Shown: piece after piece, positions 20,268 through 29,835 of the stretch
How positions within the stretch are numbered: position 1 is the first letter of the stretch
Layout: each line of letters opens with the position of its first letter
Source of the DNA: Gemmatimonadota bacterium
GTDB taxonomy: Bacteria > Gemmatimonadota > Gemmatimonadetes > Longimicrobiales > Gaopeijiaceae
Direction of reading: 5' to 3'
Assembly: GCA_015664885.1 (NCBI GenBank)
Contig: DQPL01000122.1
Location: forward strand, 1-64,000
DNA length: 64,000 bases
The notes under the pieces: generated by a model
Database searches by the model: none
What the model saw: the letters and a program-made list of their open reading frames with translations, nothing else
Told to the model about the DNA's origin: nothing
Made by a program: the position numbers and the translations under genes

Positions 20268-21659
20268 ATGAGCAACCGTCCTCCCGCCGATTCCGGCTCG
20301 CTTCCGCGACGCGACCTTCTCAAGCTGGGCGTAGCAGGCCTTGGTCTGAGCGCCACGGCAGCCATGCCGGGCCTCGCATCCGGCGATGCGCCCAATCAGG
20401 AACGGCCCGACCTCGGCCCCGCGCCCGCCACTCCCTTCGCCGCGCAGCCACTCGATGCGGTGCGCGTCGGGTTCGTCGGAGTCGGCGGCATGGGGGGCGC
20501 GCACGTTCGCAATTTCCTTGGCCTAGCAGACGTGGAGATCACCGCGCTCTGTGACATCAACGAGGCTCGCAACACCGAGGTCGCGTCCTGGGTCACCGAG
20601 GATGGTCGCCCCAGGCCGGCCATGTATGGCCGGAACGAGACCGATTTCGTGCGCATGTGCGAGACGGAGGATCTCGACCTCGTGCTCACCGCCACACCAT
20701 GGGAGTGGCACGTGCCGGTGTGCGTGGCCGCGATGGAGAACGGCAAACACGCGGCCACCGAGGTGCCCGCGGCGTACCGGACGGAGGACTGTTGGAAGAT
20801 GGTCGAGTACGCCGAGAAGTATCAACGGCACTGCGTGATGATGGAGAACTGCAATTACGACCGCCCCGAGATGATGGTATTCCACATGGCTCGCCTCGGT
20901 CTTTTTGGCGAGATCCTCCATGCCGAGTGTGGCTACTTGCACGACCTGCGCTCGATCAAATTCTCCGAGACCGGCGAGGGACTCTGGCGCCGGGCCCACG
21001 CGATGGTCCGCGACGCCAACCTGTACCCTACCCACGGACTGGGCCCGGTGGCGAACGTCATGGACATCAACCGTGGTGACCGCTTCGACTATCTGGTGTC
21101 GATGAGCTCACCGTCCCGTGGGTTACAGGAGTGGGCGGAGGCCCACTATCCGGAGGGCCACGCGAAGCGGCAGGAACGCTACATGCTCGGGGATGTGAAT
21201 ACGACGATGATCAAGACCGTCCAGGGCAAGACGATCTACCTGGGCCACGATACCAATTTGCCGCGTCCTTATTCGCGCATTCACATGGTGCAGGGGACGA
21301 AGGGGCTTTTTCAGGGCTACCCGAATCGCGTATACCTCGAAGGCATGAGTCCCGAGCACCGCTGGCAGGACTGGATGGAGTTGAGGGAAGAATTCGACCA
21401 TCCACTCTGGAAGGACCTCGAAGCACAGTCTGAGGGCGCGGGCCATGGAGGCATGGACTTCATCGAGGACTACCGGCTAGTAAAGTGCCTGCTCGAGGGC
21501 AAGCCGACCGACATGAACGTATACGACGCCGCGGCCCTATCGGTAATCACACCTCTCTCTGAGTGGTCGGTTGCCAACCGTAGCAGGCCCATCGACGTGC
21601 CCGACTTCACGCGTGGGCGCTGGGCGCAATGGCCGAAGCTCGAGATCCTGAGGGCGTGA
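20268..21659 (+). CDS. GH109-type Gfo/Idh/MocA family protein, Tat-exported
   Basis: A 463-residue protein with a Tat signal (PRRDLLKLGVAGLG, about 13-26) and a Rossmann motif VGFVGVGGMG near 66-75. Its body follows the pattern of GH109 NAD-dependent a-N-acetylgalactosaminidases closely: TPWEWHVPV, GKHAATEVPAAY, LYPTHGLGPVANVMDINRGD, GHDTNLPRPYSRIH, GHGGMDFIEDYRL, NVYDAAALSVITPLSEWSVA and DFTRGRW. GH109 enzymes cleave glycosidic bonds by transient oxidation using tightly bound NAD. It overlaps the following galactokinase gene, which supports a role in galactosyl sugar use. Specificity is inferred. Confidence 0.85.
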   Translation: MSNRPPADSGSLPRRDLLKLGVAGLGLSATAAMPGLASGDAPNQERPDLGPAPATPFAAQPLDAVRVGFVGVGGMGGAHVRNFLGLADVEITALCDINEARNTEVASWVTEDGRPRPAMYGRNETDFVRMCETEDLDLVLTATPWEWHVPVCVAAMENGKHAATEVPAAYRTEDCWKMVEYAEKYQRHCVMMENCNYDRPEMMVFHMARLGLFGEILHAECGYLHDLRSIKFSETGEGLWRRAHAMVRDANLYPTHGLGPVANVMDINRGDRFDYLVSMSSPSRGLQEWAEAHYPEGHAKRQERYMLGDVNTTMIKTVQGKTIYLGHDTNLPRPYSRIHMVQGTKGLFQGYPNRVYLEGMSPEHRWQDWMELREEFDHPLWKDLEAQSEGAGHGGMDFIEDYRLVKCLLEGKPTDMNVYDAAALSVITPLSEWSVANRSRPIDVPDFTRGRWAQWPKLEILRA

Positions 21660-22894
21660 CGAACGAGAGAAGCACAGATTCAGAGCTGTTCTCGTCGCTG
21701 TTTGGCGGTGCCCCGACCCATGTCGCGCGTGCCCCCGGCCGTGTGAATCTCATGGGGGAGCACATCGACTATTGCGACCTCGCGGTGTTGCCGATGGCGA
21801 CGCAACACGAGGCTCAGCTCCAATTCCGGGCACGGGATGACGGCCTAGTCCGAATCACGAACCAAGATCCAGAGTTCGACCCGGTGGAGTTCGAGCTCGG
21901 TCCTGCGATCGCCCCGGGCTCGCGGGGTGACTGGCGCAATTATCTGCAGGCGCCAGCCAACGAGTTGGCCCGGCAGTTCGCAATCTGGCGAGGTCTCGAC
22001 GGGGTCCTTTCCTCGGACATTCCGGTTGCCGCAGGACTCTCGTCTTCAACCGCACTGGTGAATGCGGTTGGGCTGGCGCTCGCAGAGGTCAACGAAGTCC
22101 TCCTCGCCCCCGCGCAGTTTGCCGAGCTCATGGCCGAGGCCGAGCACTACACGGGCACGCGCGGCGGAGGTATGGATCAGGCGATCGGATTCGGGGCTCG
22201 CGCTGGCCACGCGGCTTGCATCGCCTTCAGCCCCCTGCGCATGCGACACGTCGCGGTGCCTGAAGATTGGTGCTTCGTGGTGGCCGATACCGGAGTGCGG
22301 GCTGAGAAATCGGGACGAGCACAAGGCCCGTACAACCAGCGGCGCTCGGAGTGCGAAGAGGCCCTCGATGTCGTCGTGCAGTTCGCGTTGCAGCATGACC
22401 GACTTCCCACTAGACCGCGTGGCTATCCAGATCTTCTGCGCATGCTCGGAGCAGCTGAGGTGATCAGCTTGGCGGAGGAGGCACTTGAAGCGCGCCTACT
22501 CAAGCGCTTCCGCCACGTCGTGACCGAGGCCGATCGGGTGGACCAGGCCGTCGACTGCCTGTTGAGTGCGGACCTGGCAGGATTTGGCACGTTGATGGAC
22601 GCTTCCCATGGCAGCCTGTACGCCGACTACCAGGTGAGCTCTCGGGAACTCGACGAACTAGTAGCTATCGCGCGGGAGGGGGGCGGCGCCGGGGCACGGC
22701 TCACAGGTGCGGGCTTCGGTGGCTGCATCGTTACCCTGGCTGATCGGGGAACGGTGGGGGCGGTTCTAGAGACGCTCGCCGAGCAGTACTTTGAGCCTCG
22801 TGGCATGGGCGATGGCATCGACGATCGCCTCTTCGTTGCGGTGCCGTCGGCAGGAGCTTCCGTGGGTAATTCTGTAGCAGCGGCAGGAGCTTGA
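21656..22894 (+). CDS. galK: Galactokinase (GHMP kinase family)
   Basis: A 412-residue sugar kinase. The galactokinase signature APGRVNLMGEHIDY lies near residue 27, the ATP-binding loop PVAAGLSSSTALVNA near 125, and the third GHMP motif LTGAGFGGCIV near 352. I chose GTG 21656, which overlaps the upstream stop (GTGA); a start at 21629 is possible. It should phosphorylate galactose at C1, or perhaps N-acetylgalactosamine given the coupled GH109-type gene. No galT or galE is seen nearby. Confidence 0.85.
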   Translation: MTNERSTDSELFSSLFGGAPTHVARAPGRVNLMGEHIDYCDLAVLPMATQHEAQLQFRARDDGLVRITNQDPEFDPVEFELGPAIAPGSRGDWRNYLQAPANELARQFAIWRGLDGVLSSDIPVAAGLSSSTALVNAVGLALAEVNEVLLAPAQFAELMAEAEHYTGTRGGGMDQAIGFGARAGHAACIAFSPLRMRHVAVPEDWCFVVADTGVRAEKSGRAQGPYNQRRSECEEALDVVVQFALQHDRLPTRPRGYPDLLRMLGAAEVISLAEEALEARLLKRFRHVVTEADRVDQAVDCLLSADLAGFGTLMDASHGSLYADYQVSSRELDELVAIAREGGGAGARLTGAGFGGCIVTLADRGTVGAVLETLAEQYFEPRGMGDGIDDRLFVAVPSAGASVGNSVAAAGA

Positions 22895-22954: not shown

Positions 22955-23722
22955 GTGCTCGGTCCCTCGTCCAAGAAGATCATGCTCTGCGTTCTGGTGG
23001 CGTGTTTCGCCGTCCAGACGGGCCTGGTCTATTCGGACGACGTGGATCTCCAACTGTCGCAGCAGGCGATCGAAGGACGTCGACTCTTTCACGAGAAGGC
23101 GTGTCAAGTCTGTCACCAACTCTGGGGCCAGGGGGGATTCCTCGGCCCAGACCTCACGAACTCTGCGAGCCGTGTCGATGAGACGCGGCTCGCTTCGCTT
23201 CTGACCGTTGGCAGTGGTCAGATGCCCGCGTTGCACTTCGACTCCAAACAGATCGCTGCCATGCGAGCGTTCCTGGAAGAACTCGATCGAGCCGAGGTCG
23301 GACGGGGCGAGCTGCGATTGGGCGACCCCGACGGAACGACGAGTCCGCAGGCCGCGTTCGAGGCGGCAGTCCTCGCCGCCTCAGCGCCATCAAATGCGGT
23401 GGCCGGGTTCGAAGTGCTGCGCTCCGGCGTGTGTAGCGCGTGTCACTTCCCGTTCCAGGTGTCGATCGTTGGCGCCCCCGATCTTTCCACCGTGGTCGCA
23501 CGCCTCGATGAATCGGCGTTGCACGAGGTGCTGACGAGCGGGCGTCCGGAGCAAGGAATGCCGCCGCCGGTTCCGGCGCTCTCTCAGGCCCAACGCCAGC
23601 AAGTGATCGAGTATTTTCGGTGGCTCAACAGCGATCGCGACGCGCTCCGGTCGGAGACCGCGCGTCGCCAGTCCGGAAGGAGGCTCGACTGGTCGAGACT
23701 GCCGTGGTGGGAGTACCGGTGA
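22955..23722 (+). CDS. Membrane-anchored di-heme cytochrome c, NorC-like
   Basis: A 255-residue protein with a short basic start, one N-terminal membrane anchor (about 9-26) and two c-type heme sites: CQVCH (C50, C53, H54) and CSACH (C160, C163, H164). Likely sixth ligands are M90 (GQMPAL) and the Met in GMPPPVP. The N-terminus and first domain resemble NorC (anchor, then GRRLFHEKACQVCHQLWGQG); the second cytochrome domain is extra relative to mono-heme NorC. GTG 22955 keeps the KK before the anchor; ATG 22982 is the alternative. Its stop overlaps the NorB-like start (GTGA). It probably feeds electrons to that subunit. Confidence 0.85.
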   Translation: MLGPSSKKIMLCVLVACFAVQTGLVYSDDVDLQLSQQAIEGRRLFHEKACQVCHQLWGQGGFLGPDLTNSASRVDETRLASLLTVGSGQMPALHFDSKQIAAMRAFLEELDRAEVGRGELRLGDPDGTTSPQAAFEAAVLAASAPSNAVAGFEVLRSGVCSACHFPFQVSIVGAPDLSTVVARLDESALHEVLTSGRPEQGMPPPVPALSQAQRQQVIEYFRWLNSDRDALRSETARRQSGRRLDWSRLPWWEYR

Positions 23723-25158
23723 CGGCCGAAGGGGGGCCCTGGCGTCCGTTCGACGAGGCCGATCCGGTTCGTCAGTTCGCGACGCTCATGTTCATCCGCG
23801 GTGGCTTGATCGCGATGGCTATCACCCTGTTGGGTGGTATTTTGAGCGCTTTGTACTCGGTGCCCGCGCTCGCCCCATCGTTCCAATCGATCGGACTCGA
23901 CCTGCGTCAGCTTCGGCCCATTCACACAGCCTTCGCGGCCGCGTGGATCTTCCTCGGCGGCGTGGCCGTGGTGCATCGCTGGCTTCAGGATCACGGAGGC
24001 GTGGCGACGGCCGGCGATCGCTGGCGCCTGCGCATCCAGGTGGGATCGTGGGCGATCGCCGGTTTGGGAATTCTGGTGACGCTCGCGATGGGTATCGGTT
24101 CCGGCCGCGAGTACGTCGGGTTCCACCCGGTCTTCAGCGTCTTCATCCTGCTCGGATGGATCTGCTTTGTTTGGAACTTCTTCCGTGTGGCGGGCCCCGA
24201 CTTCTTCGAGAGGCCGCTCTACCTGACGATGTGGGGCGTTGGCATGCTCTTCTTCGTCGTCACGTTTGTGGAGCAGCACCTCTATCTGCTGCCCAGCTTC
24301 TTCGGAAACCCGGTGCAGGATCTCCAGGTGCAGTGGAAGGCGACCGGCACCTTGGTGGGGAGCTTCAACCTCTTCGTCTACGGCTCGATCATCTACATCG
24401 GCGAGCGCATCAGCCGAGATGCCCGCTACGGTCATTCCAGGCTGGCATACGCACTCTTCGCCGTCAGCCTGCTGAATTCGTTCACGAACTTTGCGCACCA
24501 CTCCTACCACCTGCCGCAGGATCACATCGTCAAGTGGATCTCCTTTGTGGTGAGCATGTTGGAGATCACGATCCTTTGTCGCGCCGTCTACGAGCTGTGG
24601 AGGCTCGTGAATGCGACCGACGAGCAGGCGTTCTGCGCCGCGCGAGGCAGCTTCGCCGCCTCGAAGTATTGGACGGTATTCATCCTGTTGTCGTCGGTAT
24701 TGATCTCGATTCCACCGCTCAACGCGCTCATCCACGGCACGTACGTCGTGACTGGGCACGCGATGGGCGCCACCATCGGGATCGATACTATGATCCTGCT
24801 GGGGGCCGTCATCTGGATCCTGAGCGAACACTTGCAGGCGCGAGAAGGGGAGTTGGCCTCCGCCGTACTGCACACAGCAGGAGTGAAAGGCATCGTTGTG
24901 GGGCTCAACCTGAGCGTGGCTGCGCTCGTAATGTGGCTCCACGTTTCCGGTGTGATCACCGGAGTGACGCGGGCGGGTTTTTCGCCAGGCGAGACCTACG
25001 TGTCGCCGACATGGCTCGCGAACTGGAACGGCGTGTTGTTCGCGGCAACCGGTATGGTCGCGCTGCTATTCTTCGTGCTCCTGCTTGCCCGCCTCGTCCC
25101 GGTCGCGTTTCGCTACTGGTGGGTCGCACCTACAAGCCCACCCGCGGGAACGTCTTGA
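23719..25158 (+). CDS. NorB-like heme-copper oxidase superfamily subunit with altered metal-ligand residues
   Basis: A 479-residue, 12-helix protein. It keeps H69 (RPIHTAFAAAW, low-spin heme ligand), H260-H261 (NFAHHSYHLP, two FeB ligands) and H347 (VTGHAMGATIGIDTMIL, high-spin heme ligand). Canonical cNOR has HLWVEG in helix VI; the aligned stretch here is NLFVYG, giving N217 for the third FeB histidine and Y221 for the catalytic glutamate. The canonical HxH of helix X reads HxM (M349). H187 in VEQHLYLLP of helix V could supply another ligand. I read it as a non-canonical NO reductase-like enzyme; oxygen reduction or NO dismutation cannot be excluded. GTG 23719 overlaps the cytochrome c stop. 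Its 3' end overlaps the convergent symporter gene by 29 bases. Confidence 0.8.
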   Translation: MTAEGGPWRPFDEADPVRQFATLMFIRGGLIAMAITLLGGILSALYSVPALAPSFQSIGLDLRQLRPIHTAFAAAWIFLGGVAVVHRWLQDHGGVATAGDRWRLRIQVGSWAIAGLGILVTLAMGIGSGREYVGFHPVFSVFILLGWICFVWNFFRVAGPDFFERPLYLTMWGVGMLFFVVTFVEQHLYLLPSFFGNPVQDLQVQWKATGTLVGSFNLFVYGSIIYIGERISRDARYGHSRLAYALFAVSLLNSFTNFAHHSYHLPQDHIVKWISFVVSMLEITILCRAVYELWRLVNATDEQAFCAARGSFAASKYWTVFILLSSVLISIPPLNALIHGTYVVTGHAMGATIGIDTMILLGAVIWILSEHLQAREGELASAVLHTAGVKGIVVGLNLSVAALVMWLHVSGVITGVTRAGFSPGETYVSPTWLANWNGVLFAATGMVALLFFVLLLARLVPVAFRYWWVAPTSPPAGTS

Positions 25159-26896
25159 TCAGCCCCACGGCCGCAGCGGCGGTGGCAGCAAAGCAGGCCA
25201 TCGATAGCCCAACCTGACCGTACAGCGCGTACCCTGTCCCGCAGAGCGCGCCGTAAACCACGACGCACGCCAGGAACCAGGCGAGGAATGCTGCGCTCGG
25301 ACCCTGAGCGTCGGGGTCCGGCTCCAGTCCTAGGCCGGCTCCTCGCCAACCCGGGCCCATTGGCTTGATGAGCTCGTGGAAGGTCCGGAGTGTGTCCGGC
25401 TGTGCGGGAGGGGTGAGGAACGTCACGGTCACCCAGCCGACCGAGGTGATGAGCACACCGAGCACGAGCTGAAGAGACGGGTCTACAGCCTCGAAGCCGA
25501 GCGCTACATGTGCAAACTGGAAGTAGATGGCGACCAGGAACGAGATCACCATCGCGGAAAGCTCGCTCCAAACGTTGATGCGCCACCAGAACCAGCGCAG
25601 TAGGAAAACCAGCCCGGTCCCAGCTCCGATCTGCAGCAGGATCTGAAACGCTTGTAACGCATTTTCCAGCCACAGCGAAACGATGCTTGCGAGCATGATC
25701 AGCCCCACGGTCGCGGCGCGTCCGACTTGCACGTAGTGCCGCTCGTCCTTGGCCGGGGCCACGAACCTTCTGTAGCAGTCGTCGACCATATAAGACGCAC
25801 CCCAGTTGAGGTGCGTGCTGATCGTCGACATGTATGCCGCGGCAAGGGAGGCCACAACCAACCCGAGTAGCCCGGACGGCAAGAAGACGAGCATGGCCGG
25901 GTACGCCAGGTCGTGGCGTACGATCGATGGATCGACGAGCGGGAACGCCGCCTGGATCGACTCGAGCGTCGGGTACATGATGAGCGATGCGAGCGCGACC
26001 ACGATCCATGGCCAGGGTCGCAGCGCGTAGTGTGCGACATTGAACCACAGCGTGGCCTTGAGCGCGTGGGATTCGTCCTTGGCTGCGAGCATGCGCTGAG
26101 CTACGTAACCACCGCCTCCCGGTTCTGCGCCGGGATACCAGGTACTCCACCACTGGACGGCGATGGGCACGATGAAGACGGCGGTGGCGGTCCTCATGTC
26201 AGTGAAGTCGGGCAGCAGACCGAGTTTGCCCTCGAGCGCCGGGTTGGCGAACAGCCCGGAGAGTCCTCCCACATCGGGTTGCGCGACCGCGTAGTATGCC
26301 GCGGCGAAAGAGCCGATCATCGCTATGGCAAACAGCAGAAGATCAGTCACCACCACGCCCCAAAGGCCGGACGTCGCCGAGTACAAGGCGGTTACCGTGC
26401 CAGCCACCAATACCACCTCGTACTTGGACGCCCCCAGCACCACGCCGCCGATCTTGATCGCGGCGAGCGTCACGGTCGCCATGATCATCACGTTGAAGAA
26501 GACGCCGAGGTAGATGGCCCGGAATCCTCTCAAGAAAGCGGCCGGCCGGCCCGAGTAGCGGAGCTCGTAGAAGCCGACATCGGTCAGGACTCCGGAGCGG
26601 CGCCAGAGCCGTGCGTAGAAAAAGACGGTGCACATCCCTGTGATGAGGAATGCCCACCAGAGCCAGTTTTGGCTGACGCCTCCGGTACGGACCAGGTCGG
26701 TGACCAGGTTTGGGGTGTCGGTGGAGAACGTCGTCGCCACCATCGACGTGCCGAGTAGCCACCACGGCATGGAACGACCGCCGAGAAAAAACTGCTCGGT
26801 CTCGCTGCCGGCTCGGCGCGCGAAATAGAGGCCGAGGGTCAGCGCGATGACGCCGTATGCCGCGATGACCGTCCAATCCAGGGAGGTGAGTTGCAT
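25130..26896 (-). CDS. Sodium:solute symporter family protein
   Basis: A 588-residue SSS-family transporter with 13 or so membrane segments. The N-terminus shows LTLGLYFARRAGSETEQFFLGGRSMPWWLLG, split by the first helix pair, followed by STDTPNLVTDLVR; the core helices contain GAASYMVDD-type residues near NWGASYMVDDCYRRFV. Some relatives take up sugars, others organic acids; the substrate is unclear. It is convergent with the NorB-like gene, and its promoter region lies beside the 328-bp inverted-repeat element. Confidence 0.88.
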   Translation of the reverse strand: MQLTSLDWTVIAAYGVIALTLGLYFARRAGSETEQFFLGGRSMPWWLLGTSMVATTFSTDTPNLVTDLVRTGGVSQNWLWWAFLITGMCTVFFYARLWRRSGVLTDVGFYELRYSGRPAAFLRGFRAIYLGVFFNVMIMATVTLAAIKIGGVVLGASKYEVVLVAGTVTALYSATSGLWGVVVTDLLLFAIAMIGSFAAAYYAVAQPDVGGLSGLFANPALEGKLGLLPDFTDMRTATAVFIVPIAVQWWSTWYPGAEPGGGGYVAQRMLAAKDESHALKATLWFNVAHYALRPWPWIVVALASLIMYPTLESIQAAFPLVDPSIVRHDLAYPAMLVFLPSGLLGLVVASLAAAYMSTISTHLNWGASYMVDDCYRRFVAPAKDERHYVQVGRAATVGLIMLASIVSLWLENALQAFQILLQIGAGTGLVFLLRWFWWRINVWSELSAMVISFLVAIYFQFAHVALGFEAVDPSLQLVLGVLITSVGWVTVTFLTPPAQPDTLRTFHELIKPMGPGWRGAGLGLEPDPDAQGPSAAFLAWFLACVVVYGALCGTGYALYGQVGLSMACFAATAAAAVGLIKTFPRVGL

Positions 26897-26909
26897 ATGG
26901 GAGCGGTGG

Positions 26910-27237
26910 CTAGGGAACCTCTGAACAAGTAGGGCACGCCGCGTTACGGTGCCACGGCCCCAGATCCTAGGTGGGGCTTAGATGGCATAGCCGTCGCTAC
27001 GTCGAGAAGCTCCAACGACGGAGATGGGGCCGTGCCATCGTAACCCCACAAACCGTCAAGTGTTTTCACGATTGGTGTTGGGGCGCAGGGGGGTCGCGGC
27101 CCAATAGGTCGTTTCTCCTCCTCGGACCACCGCCTTCGGCGGCGGTGCCCGAACAACTACGACTCGTCGTCGTGCCTACTATTGAACTCGCGAGACCCCT
27201 GCGCGCGGCGCGCCCTACTTGTTCAGAGGCTCCCTAG
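26910..27237. mobile_element. MITE-like element with 34-bp terminal inverted repeats
   Basis: Left end 26910-26943 and right end 27204-27237 are inverted copies matching at 32 of 34 positions; both begin with CTAG and contain CCTCTGAACAAGTAGGGC or its one-base variant. No transposase or other convincing gene lies between them. A second, internal inverted repeat (26943-26966 with 27021-27044, 20 of 24) and a CCGCC-TTCG-GGCGG type hairpin near 27129-27147 give it a fold-back structure. Ends of this kind with a CTAG/TA target fit IS5-family elements, so this is probably a non-autonomous derivative; that family assignment is inference. It fills the whole gap between the symporter and nucleotidyltransferase genes. 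Confidence 0.8.
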
Positions 27238-28157
27238 GTGTCCAATGCGGAGAAGGCTTCCCGTAGGCTAGCCGGATACGCGCCCTCCTCGACGCGTTGG
27301 CGCAAGATCTCCACCGCCTGGTCCCGATCCTCCGCGTGCGTTACTCCGAACCATGTATCCGGGGCGTGCAGCACGTAGACCTGTGAAGCCCTGATCTGGA
27401 TCTGGTCGTTCACCGCAGTCGAGAGGAAGAACTCGCGTGATGTGTCCGCGCCCCAGCGACCGAGGAAACGAGCGAACTGCCTGTGCATGTGCTCGATAAT
27501 AGGTGCGGTGAAGCCCCAGAGATTCATGGACACGATCTCGTCGCCGGAGAGGTCGAGCGAGCTACCGTCGGTGTACATGCCAGCGATCCAGCCATCGATA
27601 CGTCGGATCTCACGCACTTCGGAGACGCGCGATAGCAGCCCGTCCCGACTCAGGACGCAGACCCCCCGAGCTACGCCACCACATCCCGACAGCGTCTGGT
27701 CGAGAGTGTACCCGACCAAAGCGGCTTCGGTCGGGACCGGATCGGAGGACAGATGCTCGTACATCATCGAGAACGCGCCGGGCCCATAGAGGTCGTCGGA
27801 GTTGCATACCGCGAAGGGTCCATGGATGAGCCTCGACGCGCACAAGACGGCGTGGCCCGTGCCCCAAGGCCGCACGCGATCGGGAGGTGTCCGGAACCCC
27901 TCGGGCAGTTCGTCCAGGTCCTGGTGCACGAACTCCAACGGGAGAGTATCACCCACGACGTTGGCCACGTGCTCGCGAACCGCCTGCTCAATCTCCGGTC
28001 GCACGACGAAGATCATGTGGTCGAAGCCGGCGCGGGCGGCGTCGTACACGTTGTAATCCATGATCGCTTCACCGCCCGGCCCCAACGGGTCCAACTGCTT
28101 CAAGCGCCCGTAGCGCGTGGACAGGCCGCCGGCGAGCACGACCAGCGGCACGCTCAC
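27234..28157 (-). CDS. Sugar nucleotidyltransferase family protein
   Basis: A 307-residue protein of the nucleotidyltransferase (GT-A) fold. It starts with PLVVLAGGLSTRYGRLKQLD, a variant of the GGxGTRL-x-K nucleotide-binding loop, and has the metal-binding VCNSDDLYG near 119-127. The product would be an NDP-sugar or similar activated compound. GTG 28157 is preferred; the frame is open to 28217 but would then overlap the upstream gene and add 20 residues before the binding loop. The TAG stop sits in the terminal CTAG of the inverted-repeat element, so the C-terminus may have been trimmed by its insertion. Confidence 0.82.
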   Translation of the reverse strand: MSVPLVVLAGGLSTRYGRLKQLDPLGPGGEAIMDYNVYDAARAGFDHMIFVVRPEIEQAVREHVANVVGDTLPLEFVHQDLDELPEGFRTPPDRVRPWGTGHAVLCASRLIHGPFAVCNSDDLYGPGAFSMMYEHLSSDPVPTEAALVGYTLDQTLSGCGGVARGVCVLSRDGLLSRVSEVREIRRIDGWIAGMYTDGSSLDLSGDEIVSMNLWGFTAPIIEHMHRQFARFLGRWGADTSREFFLSTAVNDQIQIRASQVYVLHAPDTWFGVTHAEDRDQAVEILRQRVEEGAYPASLREAFSALDT

Positions 28158-28197
28158 GAGCCTGGCCGCTCCGTCATGGTCCCTGGCTCCGTGAGCA

Positions 28198-29835
28198 TCA
28201 GGGTCCGACGCCCGCATACCTCACGCCGGTCAGGTGCGCGATGTCACGCTTCCACGTCGTGAGATCCGTTGTGCTGAAGTCCCGAAGGTTGGTGTGCCCG
28301 CAAGCGCGGGCGAGCACCTGCATGAGCTCGACCGAAGCTTCTAGGAAGTTGGCGAGTCGTCGCGCGGACTCATCCACGATCAGACGGGCTCGCAGCCCCT
28401 TCTGCTGCGTGGCGATGCCGACCGGGCAGTTGTTGGTGTGGCGGGCACGCATGCCGAGGCATCCGATGGCCTGCAGAGCCGAGTTGGCGATCGCGACGCC
28501 GTCCGCCCCGAGCGCGAGAGCTTTCACGAAGTCCGACTCCGTGCGCAGCCCTCCGGTGATGATGAGCGTCACACCGTCGACACCTGATGCGTCCAAATGA
28601 CGGCGAGCGCGGGGCAGCGCCACGAGGGTCGGCACCGAGATATTGTTCTTGAAGATCAGGGGAGCAGCTCCTGTCGCGCCGCCACGGCCGTCGAGGATGA
28701 TGTAGTCGCACCCGACCTCGAGTGCGAAGTCGATATCGTCCTCGATGTGCTGCCCGCTCAACTTGAAACCGATGGGGATGCCACCGCTGACCTCGCGCAC
28801 TTCCGCTGCGACCGCACGGAAGTCCTCGGTCGTCACAAGGTCGGGGAAAGCGGGTGGGCTGATCGCGGGCTGACCCGCTTGGAGCCCGCGGACCTCGGCG
28901 ATCTTGCCAACCACTTTGTTGCCGGGCAGGTGCCCGCCTGTCCCGGTCTTCGCTCCCTGGCCGCCCTTGAAGTGGAACGCCTGGCATTTGGCGACCTTGT
29001 CCAGGCTCCAGCCGAATTTGGCTGACGCCAGCTCGTACAGGTACCGGCTGTTCGCCTCACGCTCTTCTTCCAGCATGCCTCCCTCGCCCGAGCAGATGCC
29101 GGTTCCGACTAGCTCCGCACCCGCTGCCAAGGCAACCTTTGCTTCCTCGGAAAGGGCGCCGAAGCCCATGTCGCTCACGAAGATCGGGACGTCGAGGCGA
29201 AGAGGCTTGGCAGCGTTCGGGCCGATCACGAGCTCAGTGCCTGCGGGCTGGTCATCGAACGCGGGGCGTCTGACCAACTGCGCAGTGAGCAGTTGCAGGT
29301 CGTCCCAGCGCGGTAGCTCGTTGAGCGGGACCCCCATCGCCGACATCGCTCCGTGGTGACCGAGCTTGGATAGCCTGTCTCGCGCGAGGCCCTGGATGTA
29401 GCTGTTGTGCGGTTCCTCCGGGCCCCGTGCACGTCCTGGTACAAGCCCAGGTATTCGGCACGTCGGTAGGGCTGCGGGTGGGCCTCCGCGAATGCCGCGA
29501 CCTCGGCCTCGTCCACCCAGACCGCGTCAGCCTCTTCGTCGACCACGGCGCCGAAGCGGTGCAATGCCTCGTCATTGTTGTATTCGCTGACACCCGTGTC
29601 GTACCGATAGTCCCAGCCGTGGACACCGCAGATGAGGTTCCGCCCATCGACATAGCCGTCCGCGAGCAGCGCGCCCCGATGATGGACAACGCCCATACAT
29701 CACAGCGACCTGATCGTCGAAGCGGATTACGACGAGATCTACGTTCGCCACGAGCGCATAAGCGGGCTGTCTGTCGCCGAGTTGGCTCCAGACAGCGACT
29801 CGTGCATTGGCTCCGTTCACGGTCGGGAGATTCAT
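28198..29835 (-). pseudogene. Rieske domain-FMN glutamate synthase-like fusion, interrupted by two compensating frameshifts
   Basis: Read on the minus strand from ATG 29835 (GGGAG upstream), the protein begins with a Rieske domain, shifts frame near 29679-29686 inside the CPHRG motif, continues through LICGVHGWDY, then shifts back near 29420-29427 in a GGGGCCC run after YQDVHG. It continues as an FMN-binding glutamate synthase domain (PHNSYIQGLARD, GHHGAMSAMGVPLNELPRW, SDMGFGALSEEAK, GGQGAKTGTGGHLPG, DGRGGATGAAP). Net length is about 545 residues, as expected for an intact gene. The shifts are +1 then -1. Either the gene is newly broken, or these are sequencing errors. The C-terminal domain alone (28198-29346) is open and could be made from ATG 29346. 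Confidence 0.8.

Follow-up and report, generated by a model that had tools for sequence, protein, structure and literature searches.

A NorCB-like gene pair conserved in Gemmatimonadota with an altered set of metal and heme ligand residues

The window analyzed here comprises 64,000 nucleotides of contig DQPL01000122.1 from a Gemmatimonadota metagenome-assembled genome (assembly GCA_015664885.1). It carries two open reading frames that overlap by 4 bases, with the stop codon of a NorC-like gene lying over the start codon of a NorB-like gene. The original prediction had described a NorC/NorB-like pair, and both reading frames, as well as the two CxxCH sites of the cytochrome partner, were confirmed. 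The ORF tool placed the NorB-like start at an upstream GTG at 23620; homologues start at the position of the GTG at 23719, and residues are numbered from this codon. In that numbering, the residues previously singled out (H69, H187, N217, Y221, H260, H261, H347, and M349) are all present. The features of the pair, in window coordinates, are as follows.

22955 to 23722, + strand: NorC-like diheme cytochrome c, 255 aa, with two heme c domains and a conserved PWWEY/F tail
23102 to 23116, + strand: heme c site 1, CQVCH, kept in 23/23 partners
23432 to 23446, + strand: heme c site 2, CSACH, in 22/23 partners and absent from the partner at locus L053
23719 to 25158, + strand: NorB-like heme-copper oxidoreductase subunit I, 479 aa, start GTG at 23719
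23923 to 23925, + strand: H69, low-spin heme ligand of helix II (His60 of cNOR), invariant in alignment A2 and nearly so in alignment A3
24271 to 24279, + strand: E185-Q186-H187 at the end of helix V, clade motif TFxExH, candidate replacement ligands, with E185 and H187 in 39/39 clade members
24334 to 24339, + strand: W206-K207, a Trp anchor common to NORs and cbb3 followed by a clade-specific Lys
24346 to 24348, + strand: G210, position of FeB ligand His207 by alignments, hhalign, and HMMs
24358 to 24360, + strand: G214, position of FeB ligand Glu211 by alignments
24367 to 24369, + strand: N217, near Glu215 of cNOR and not His207, by alignments and HMMs
24379 to 24381, + strand: Y221, clade-invariant and one turn below N217
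24496 to 24501, + strand: H260-H261, helix VII metal ligands (His258/259 of cNOR), kept and invariant in all 65 A3 sequences
24562 to 24564, + strand: E282, equivalent to the second-sphere Glu280 of cNOR, a possible third metal ligand, invariant in the clade
24757 to 24759, + strand: H347, proximal ligand of heme b3, kept and invariant in A3
24763 to 24765, + strand: M349, at the helix X position where a His otherwise binds the low-spin heme; Met throughout the clade, His in all 35 other rows

The hydrophobic N-terminal segment of the NorC-like protein is taken as a membrane anchor, and the MP segment that follows each CxxCH would be expected to provide the Met ligand. At 23/23 loci examined there was a NorC-like gene sharing this N-terminal plan, 22 of them encoding two-heme proteins and the basal locus L053 a one-heme protein; in divergent loci it was the sole conserved neighbor. 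The canonical Gemmatimonadota cNORs at L096-L103, which have HLWVEG and HxH, also possess a NorC with a second heme c domain, and the second heme of the clade partner is therefore not special. The pair is flanked (20268-22894 and 25130-28217) by a cluster conserved in marine relatives that may be a locus for sugar use; it encodes a GH109-like oxidoreductase, a galactokinase-like GHMP kinase, an SSF symporter, and an NTP transferase. This neighborhood is kept within one family and not in others, so that the neighboring genes are uninformative on function. A lone glutamate-synthase-like FMN domain (PF01645) is encoded at 28201-29346 on the - strand; it is also found at L011 and L061, and not in the other relatives compared.

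The NorB-like protein matched COX1 with an E-value of 1.3e-16. Direct phmmer/hmmsearch searches of the PDB with the window NorB-like protein gave no match, nor did the window NorC-like protein yield one at E<=0.01. The NorB-like protein of basal L053 matched cNOR first in the PDB (4xyd_A, 4.7e-12; 3o0r_B, 1.7e-9), and its one-heme partner matched NorC best (3o0r_C, 2.8e-12; 4xyd_B, 7e-12). An AF2 model of the window NorB-like protein made from 65 sequences had a pLDDT of 91 and a pTM of 0.91, an earlier model from 9 close relatives having been poor (pLDDT 64). VIA-align 2 gave 4xyd_A as the best match of the model (Z 39.6, rmsd 2.4, 425 aligned), with 3o0r_B at Z 37.4 (rmsd 2.7, 426 aligned) and cbb3 close after cNOR at Z 36.9 (rmsd 3.3, 444 aligned). 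The predicted fold is cNOR-like, at an identity to cNOR of about 15-18%.

In a phylogenetic tree the NorB-like family formed a single clade (support 100/99) apart from cNOR, qNOR, and cbb3. Upon addition of eNOR and aa3 rows, the clade was sister to cNOR plus qNOR (97/92) and lay away from eNOR and aa3; the tree tool flags long branches, and the separateness of the clade is more secure than its exact sister relation. Kinship with B-family oxidases was thus not supported, and the earlier suggestion of kinship with NO dismutases or already named NOR families found no backing, the clade grouping with cNOR and qNOR. A further divergent heme-copper branch, with motifs such as WWYGHN with HHLIGG or HHFLYS, was seen beside cbb3 (L107, L114, L121, L122, and L123).

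A profile search detected the NorB-like family in about 41 of 395 Gemmatimonadota genomes, spread over several families of the order and class. The most divergent members were L051 and L052 (41-44% identity) and L053 (30%). The motifs TFxExH, NxxxYG, HHxYH, and HAMG were kept in 39/39 non-identical clade sequences. Values of dN/dS for the NorB-like gene were 0.08-0.13 against four relatives, indicating purifying selection, and a reading of the gene as a pseudogene was rejected. The clade has so far been seen in Gemmatimonadota only, the phylum covered by the whole-genome searches; no member outside it was found, one contig scan with patterns from a single sequence gave only close relatives, and the window NorB-like protein had no match among plasmids.

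A histidine sextet, including the helix VI His and the bis-His low-spin heme, has been treated as a fixed signature of heme-copper oxidoreductases (PMC3413370). In a 12-helix subunit I the sextet comprises two ligands of the low-spin heme, three of CuB or FeB, and one proximal ligand. Four of the six are kept here (H69, H260, H261, and H347); the NorB-like protein belongs to the superfamily by descent and not by its His sextet. Also kept are E131 (Ca-site Glu135 of cNOR), D201 (Asp198), S279 (Ser277), and E282 (Glu280), the roles of the cNOR residues, including Glu280, being those given in PMC3431322. Lost relative to cNOR are His207, Glu211, Glu138, and His349, the last being replaced by Met. 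New and invariant in the clade are E185, H187, K207, N217, Y221, H264, and M349, with E185 and H187 absent from all cNOR, qNOR, and cbb3 references.

The register of helix VI is anchored by Trp206, a residue conserved through cNOR, qNOR, and cbb3, where it stands 4 residues ahead of the FeB or CuB His. In AxqNOR the spacing Trp-x3-His-x3-Glu corresponds to Trp482, His486, and Glu490 (PMC10256718). The stretch VQDLQVQW of the NorB-like protein matches VQDAFMQW of cbb3, and by alignment count the distance from Trp206 to the HH pair is 54 residues in the clade protein, as compared to 54 in cbb3 and 55 in cNOR. When members were aligned to reference HMMs built without the clade, the HMM of all groups together placed Gly in the His column for 30/30 members (posterior code 9 in 28), and the HMM from cbb3 only did so for 29/30. 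With the HMM from cNOR only, Gly occupied the column in 24 and Thr or Ser in 6, while with cNOR plus qNOR the column was spread over Gly, Asp, Thr, Ser, and one gap, with mostly low posteriors. Asn was found in the His207 column in 0/30 members with any of the four reference sets. Similarly, hhalign against cbb3 put Gly210 at the His position; against cNOR it left a gap opposite the His and paired N217 with Glu215. The AF2 input alignment was already in the Gly210 register, and the model is no independent evidence on this point.

These alignments support a Trp206-anchored register in which His207 corresponds to the invariant Gly210 and Glu211 to the invariant Gly214, with N217 predicted to sit two turns deeper than the His207 position. 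The equation of NLFVYG with HLWVEG made in the original prediction is accordingly off by seven residues. Since both positions are Gly, the loss from helix VI is larger than had been described; of the four cNOR FeB ligands, the HH pair alone is kept. The broader claim of a non-canonical FeB site held, and the site is fixed across the clade. By residue spacing, K207, G210, G214, N217, and Y221 share one face of helix VI, so that a two-Gly gap would open at the former place of FeB, with the Lys above and Asn and Tyr below. The expectation that N217, Y221, and M349 would be both conserved in a clade and located at metal sites stood in part: all three are conserved and M349 is at a ligand position, but N217 and Y221 do not fall at the positions of His207 and Glu211.

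The change at the low-spin heme came through as foreseen, with HxH becoming H347-A-M349 without a gap in every clade member. Where cNOR has a bis-His low-spin heme (His60 and His349), H69 is kept and Met is fixed across the clade at position 349. M349 is therefore a putative ligand, implying a His/Met low-spin heme b. Such ligation has a precedent in heme b558 of cytochrome bd.

The partner type, fold, ligand set, and clade-wide fixation seen in sequence and model are best accounted for by a membrane NorCB-type complex, in which cytochrome c would feed a heme b3 reductase whose non-heme site is made of two His or of two His and one Glu, and which would serve outside denitrification; we consider this explanation to stand at about an even chance. 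We are equally divided on whether the clade, next to cNOR and qNOR, forms a third branch whose chemistry is its own, having dropped the universal helix VI metal ligand and the helix X low-spin His and working instead with a His/Met low-spin heme and either a two-His or two-His/one-Glu site or no second metal at all. A periplasmic donor would supply electrons, which the c-hemes would relay to low-spin heme b (H69/M349) and on to heme b3 (H347), and His/Met ligation would raise the potential of the low-spin heme. A non-heme metal, if present, would have H260 and H261 as ligands, together with E282 or water, and its insertion would need no NorQ; the two glycines would leave an open cavity at the metal site. 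A third metal ligand, if there is one, may be E282 or E185/H187. The most likely task of the complex would be to reduce or scavenge some small oxidant on the periplasmic side of the membrane. Kinship and the retained E282 make NO the leading candidate substrate, with a probability we put just short of even, followed by O2 or peroxide. With Glu211 and the third His gone, it is plausible that NO-reductase activity has changed or disappeared, and the loss of the metal ligand and Glu211 could equally mean that NO reduction has been lost.

An alternative that we regard as unlikely but credible is an enzyme with no non-heme metal, in which heme b3 acts alone and H260/H261, K207, N217, and Y221 are its distal residues. 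It could then be a heme-only reductase such as a membrane cytochrome c peroxidase. Every member has Gly at two of the four FeB ligand positions of cNOR, and the new Lys207 would share a face of helix VI with the Gly210 position and stand one turn higher. The absence of NorQ, the AAA+ protein on which Paracoccus cNOR depends for FeB insertion (PMC9976466), points the same way: NorQ was detected in 0/41 clade genomes and in 6/8 genomes with canonical cNOR (Fisher p 2e-6, uncorrected for kinship), in the latter lying a few hundred bases away from norB on the same contig. Two canonical-cNOR genomes, G359 and G141, are without NorQ, and qNOR works without it (PMC9976466), so that the absence of NorQ is no proof of an altered metal site. 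Against the heme-only alternative, the invariant H260 and H261 are more easily explained by metal binding, and E282 is kept.

That the protein is an ordinary NO reductase, making N2O at normal rates with its changes tolerated, we judge improbable. It would agree with the fold, the partner, and the retention of E282, S279, E131, and D201, and genes of marine Gemmatimonadota have already been named norB (PMC10581226). On the other hand, the third His and Glu211 are gone, the latter critical in cNOR for activity and proton uptake (PMC3431322), and in the clade genomes NosZ is depleted and NirK rare. NosZ was over the cut-off in 3 clade genomes versus 126/395 genomes overall, and NirK in 6/41. Four clade genomes also hold an eNOR-type enzyme, 3 of these with NirK, and where nitrite yields NO another NOR is thus often present too. 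This distribution of NosZ, NirK, and eNOR indicates that the NorB-like protein is not tied to denitrification. The four eNOR-type proteins (L137-L140, in G189, G014, G003, and G376) have GHSSQQ, with Gln at the Tyr position, and a CuA-type subunit II; in G189 the gene adjoins nirK. The depletion of NosZ also led us to reject the clade as the missing NOR of Gemmatimonadota having nir and nosZ (PMC12569097). Other COX1 proteins were present in 41/41 clade genomes, with strong aa3-type matches in most. Under our preferred explanation, a NorCB-type reductase apart from denitrification, the role of the complex would be protection or redox balance in aerobes.

Ligand migration, with E185, H187, or both standing in from the end of helix V for the helix VI His and Glu and giving a near-ordinary FeB site, is doubtful and in our view quite improbable. 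Neither residue varies within the clade, even at 30% identity, and neither occurs in any reference; room is left where the two helix VI ligands are now Gly. In the AF2 model, however, H187 lies just past helix V (167-186), whereas Gly210 is 12 residues into helix VI (198-232), and a helix V metal ligand is not known to us from any heme-copper enzyme.

The site as originally proposed, in which two His and Asn217 coordinate FeB and Tyr221 takes the place of Glu211, is very improbable. By eye NxxxY does resemble HxxxE and HPEVY, and both residues are invariant, but the Trp anchor and the HMM columns contradict this placement, which would shrink the His-to-HH spacing from 50-51 residues to 43 and require 7-8 residues to have been deleted between helix VI and HH. 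Scarcely credible is a NO dismutase or NOD-like enzyme: NOD likewise has altered FeB ligands in a NOR-like protein, but is described as a single-chain qNOR-like protein with His-to-Asn and Glu-to-Gln changes and no heme c (PMC3413370), a description from which the clade is set apart by residues, kinship, and architecture, having Gly at both helix VI positions and a heme c partner.

Among named systems, cNOR (NorCB; 3O0R, 4XYD) shares with the clade the fold, a two-gene operon with a NorC-type cytochrome having an anchored heme c domain (joined here by a second heme domain), the heme b3 His, the HH pair, and the equivalents of Glu280, Asp198, and Glu135. It differs in that the clade has Gly for His207 and Glu211, Met for His349, no Glu138, and the new residues E185, H187, K207, and Y221, lacks NorQ in its genomes, and falls outside cNOR plus qNOR. 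The likeness to qNOR (NorZ) extends to the fold, the sister position in the tree, and the dispensability of NorQ, but qNOR is a single chain with a heme-less cytochrome-like domain and all FeB ligands, whereas the clade has a 479 aa subunit with no fused N-terminal domain and a separate cytochrome gene. The CcoN subunit of cbb3 is similar in its helix VI start (VQDxxxQW), Trp-to-HH spacing, and cytochrome c electron input; the clade differs in lacking the helix VI CuB His and CcoO/CcoP, in having HxM for HxH, and in lying off the cbb3 branch. The eNOR, sNOR, gNOR, nNOR, and bNOR enzymes, described as related to B-family oxidases (PMC11388526), are likewise proposed or shown NORs with altered active-site residues, and eNOR, sNOR, and gNOR have a cupredoxin subunit II (PMC8756737). 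The clade is separate in the tree from the GHSSQQ eNOR-type sequences of its relatives and has a cytochrome c as its partner; from sNOR, gNOR, nNOR, and bNOR, compared by description only, it differs in its NorC-type partner and its grouping with cNOR and qNOR.

No paper describing the clade was found in a literature search that left PNAS 2024 e2316422121, on new NOR families, outside it, and an earlier description is possible. A survey reported norB without nosZ in 59.5% of marine Gemmatimonadota MAGs, from which N2O production was inferred (PMC10581226). Within the family of the source genome we found this clade and a few eNOR-type enzymes, and no canonical cNOR. Because no NorB-like protein other than these was detected there, the surveyed norB is probably the protein of this clade. 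If so, the claim of N2O production by marine Gemmatimonadota would be unsafe; with several metal-holding amino acids lost, labeling the NorB-like protein an N2O producer is unsafe. The clade offers a natural experiment on the purpose of FeB and Glu211, and a conserved, selected clade that breaks both signatures would show how far the heme-copper site can be rebuilt.
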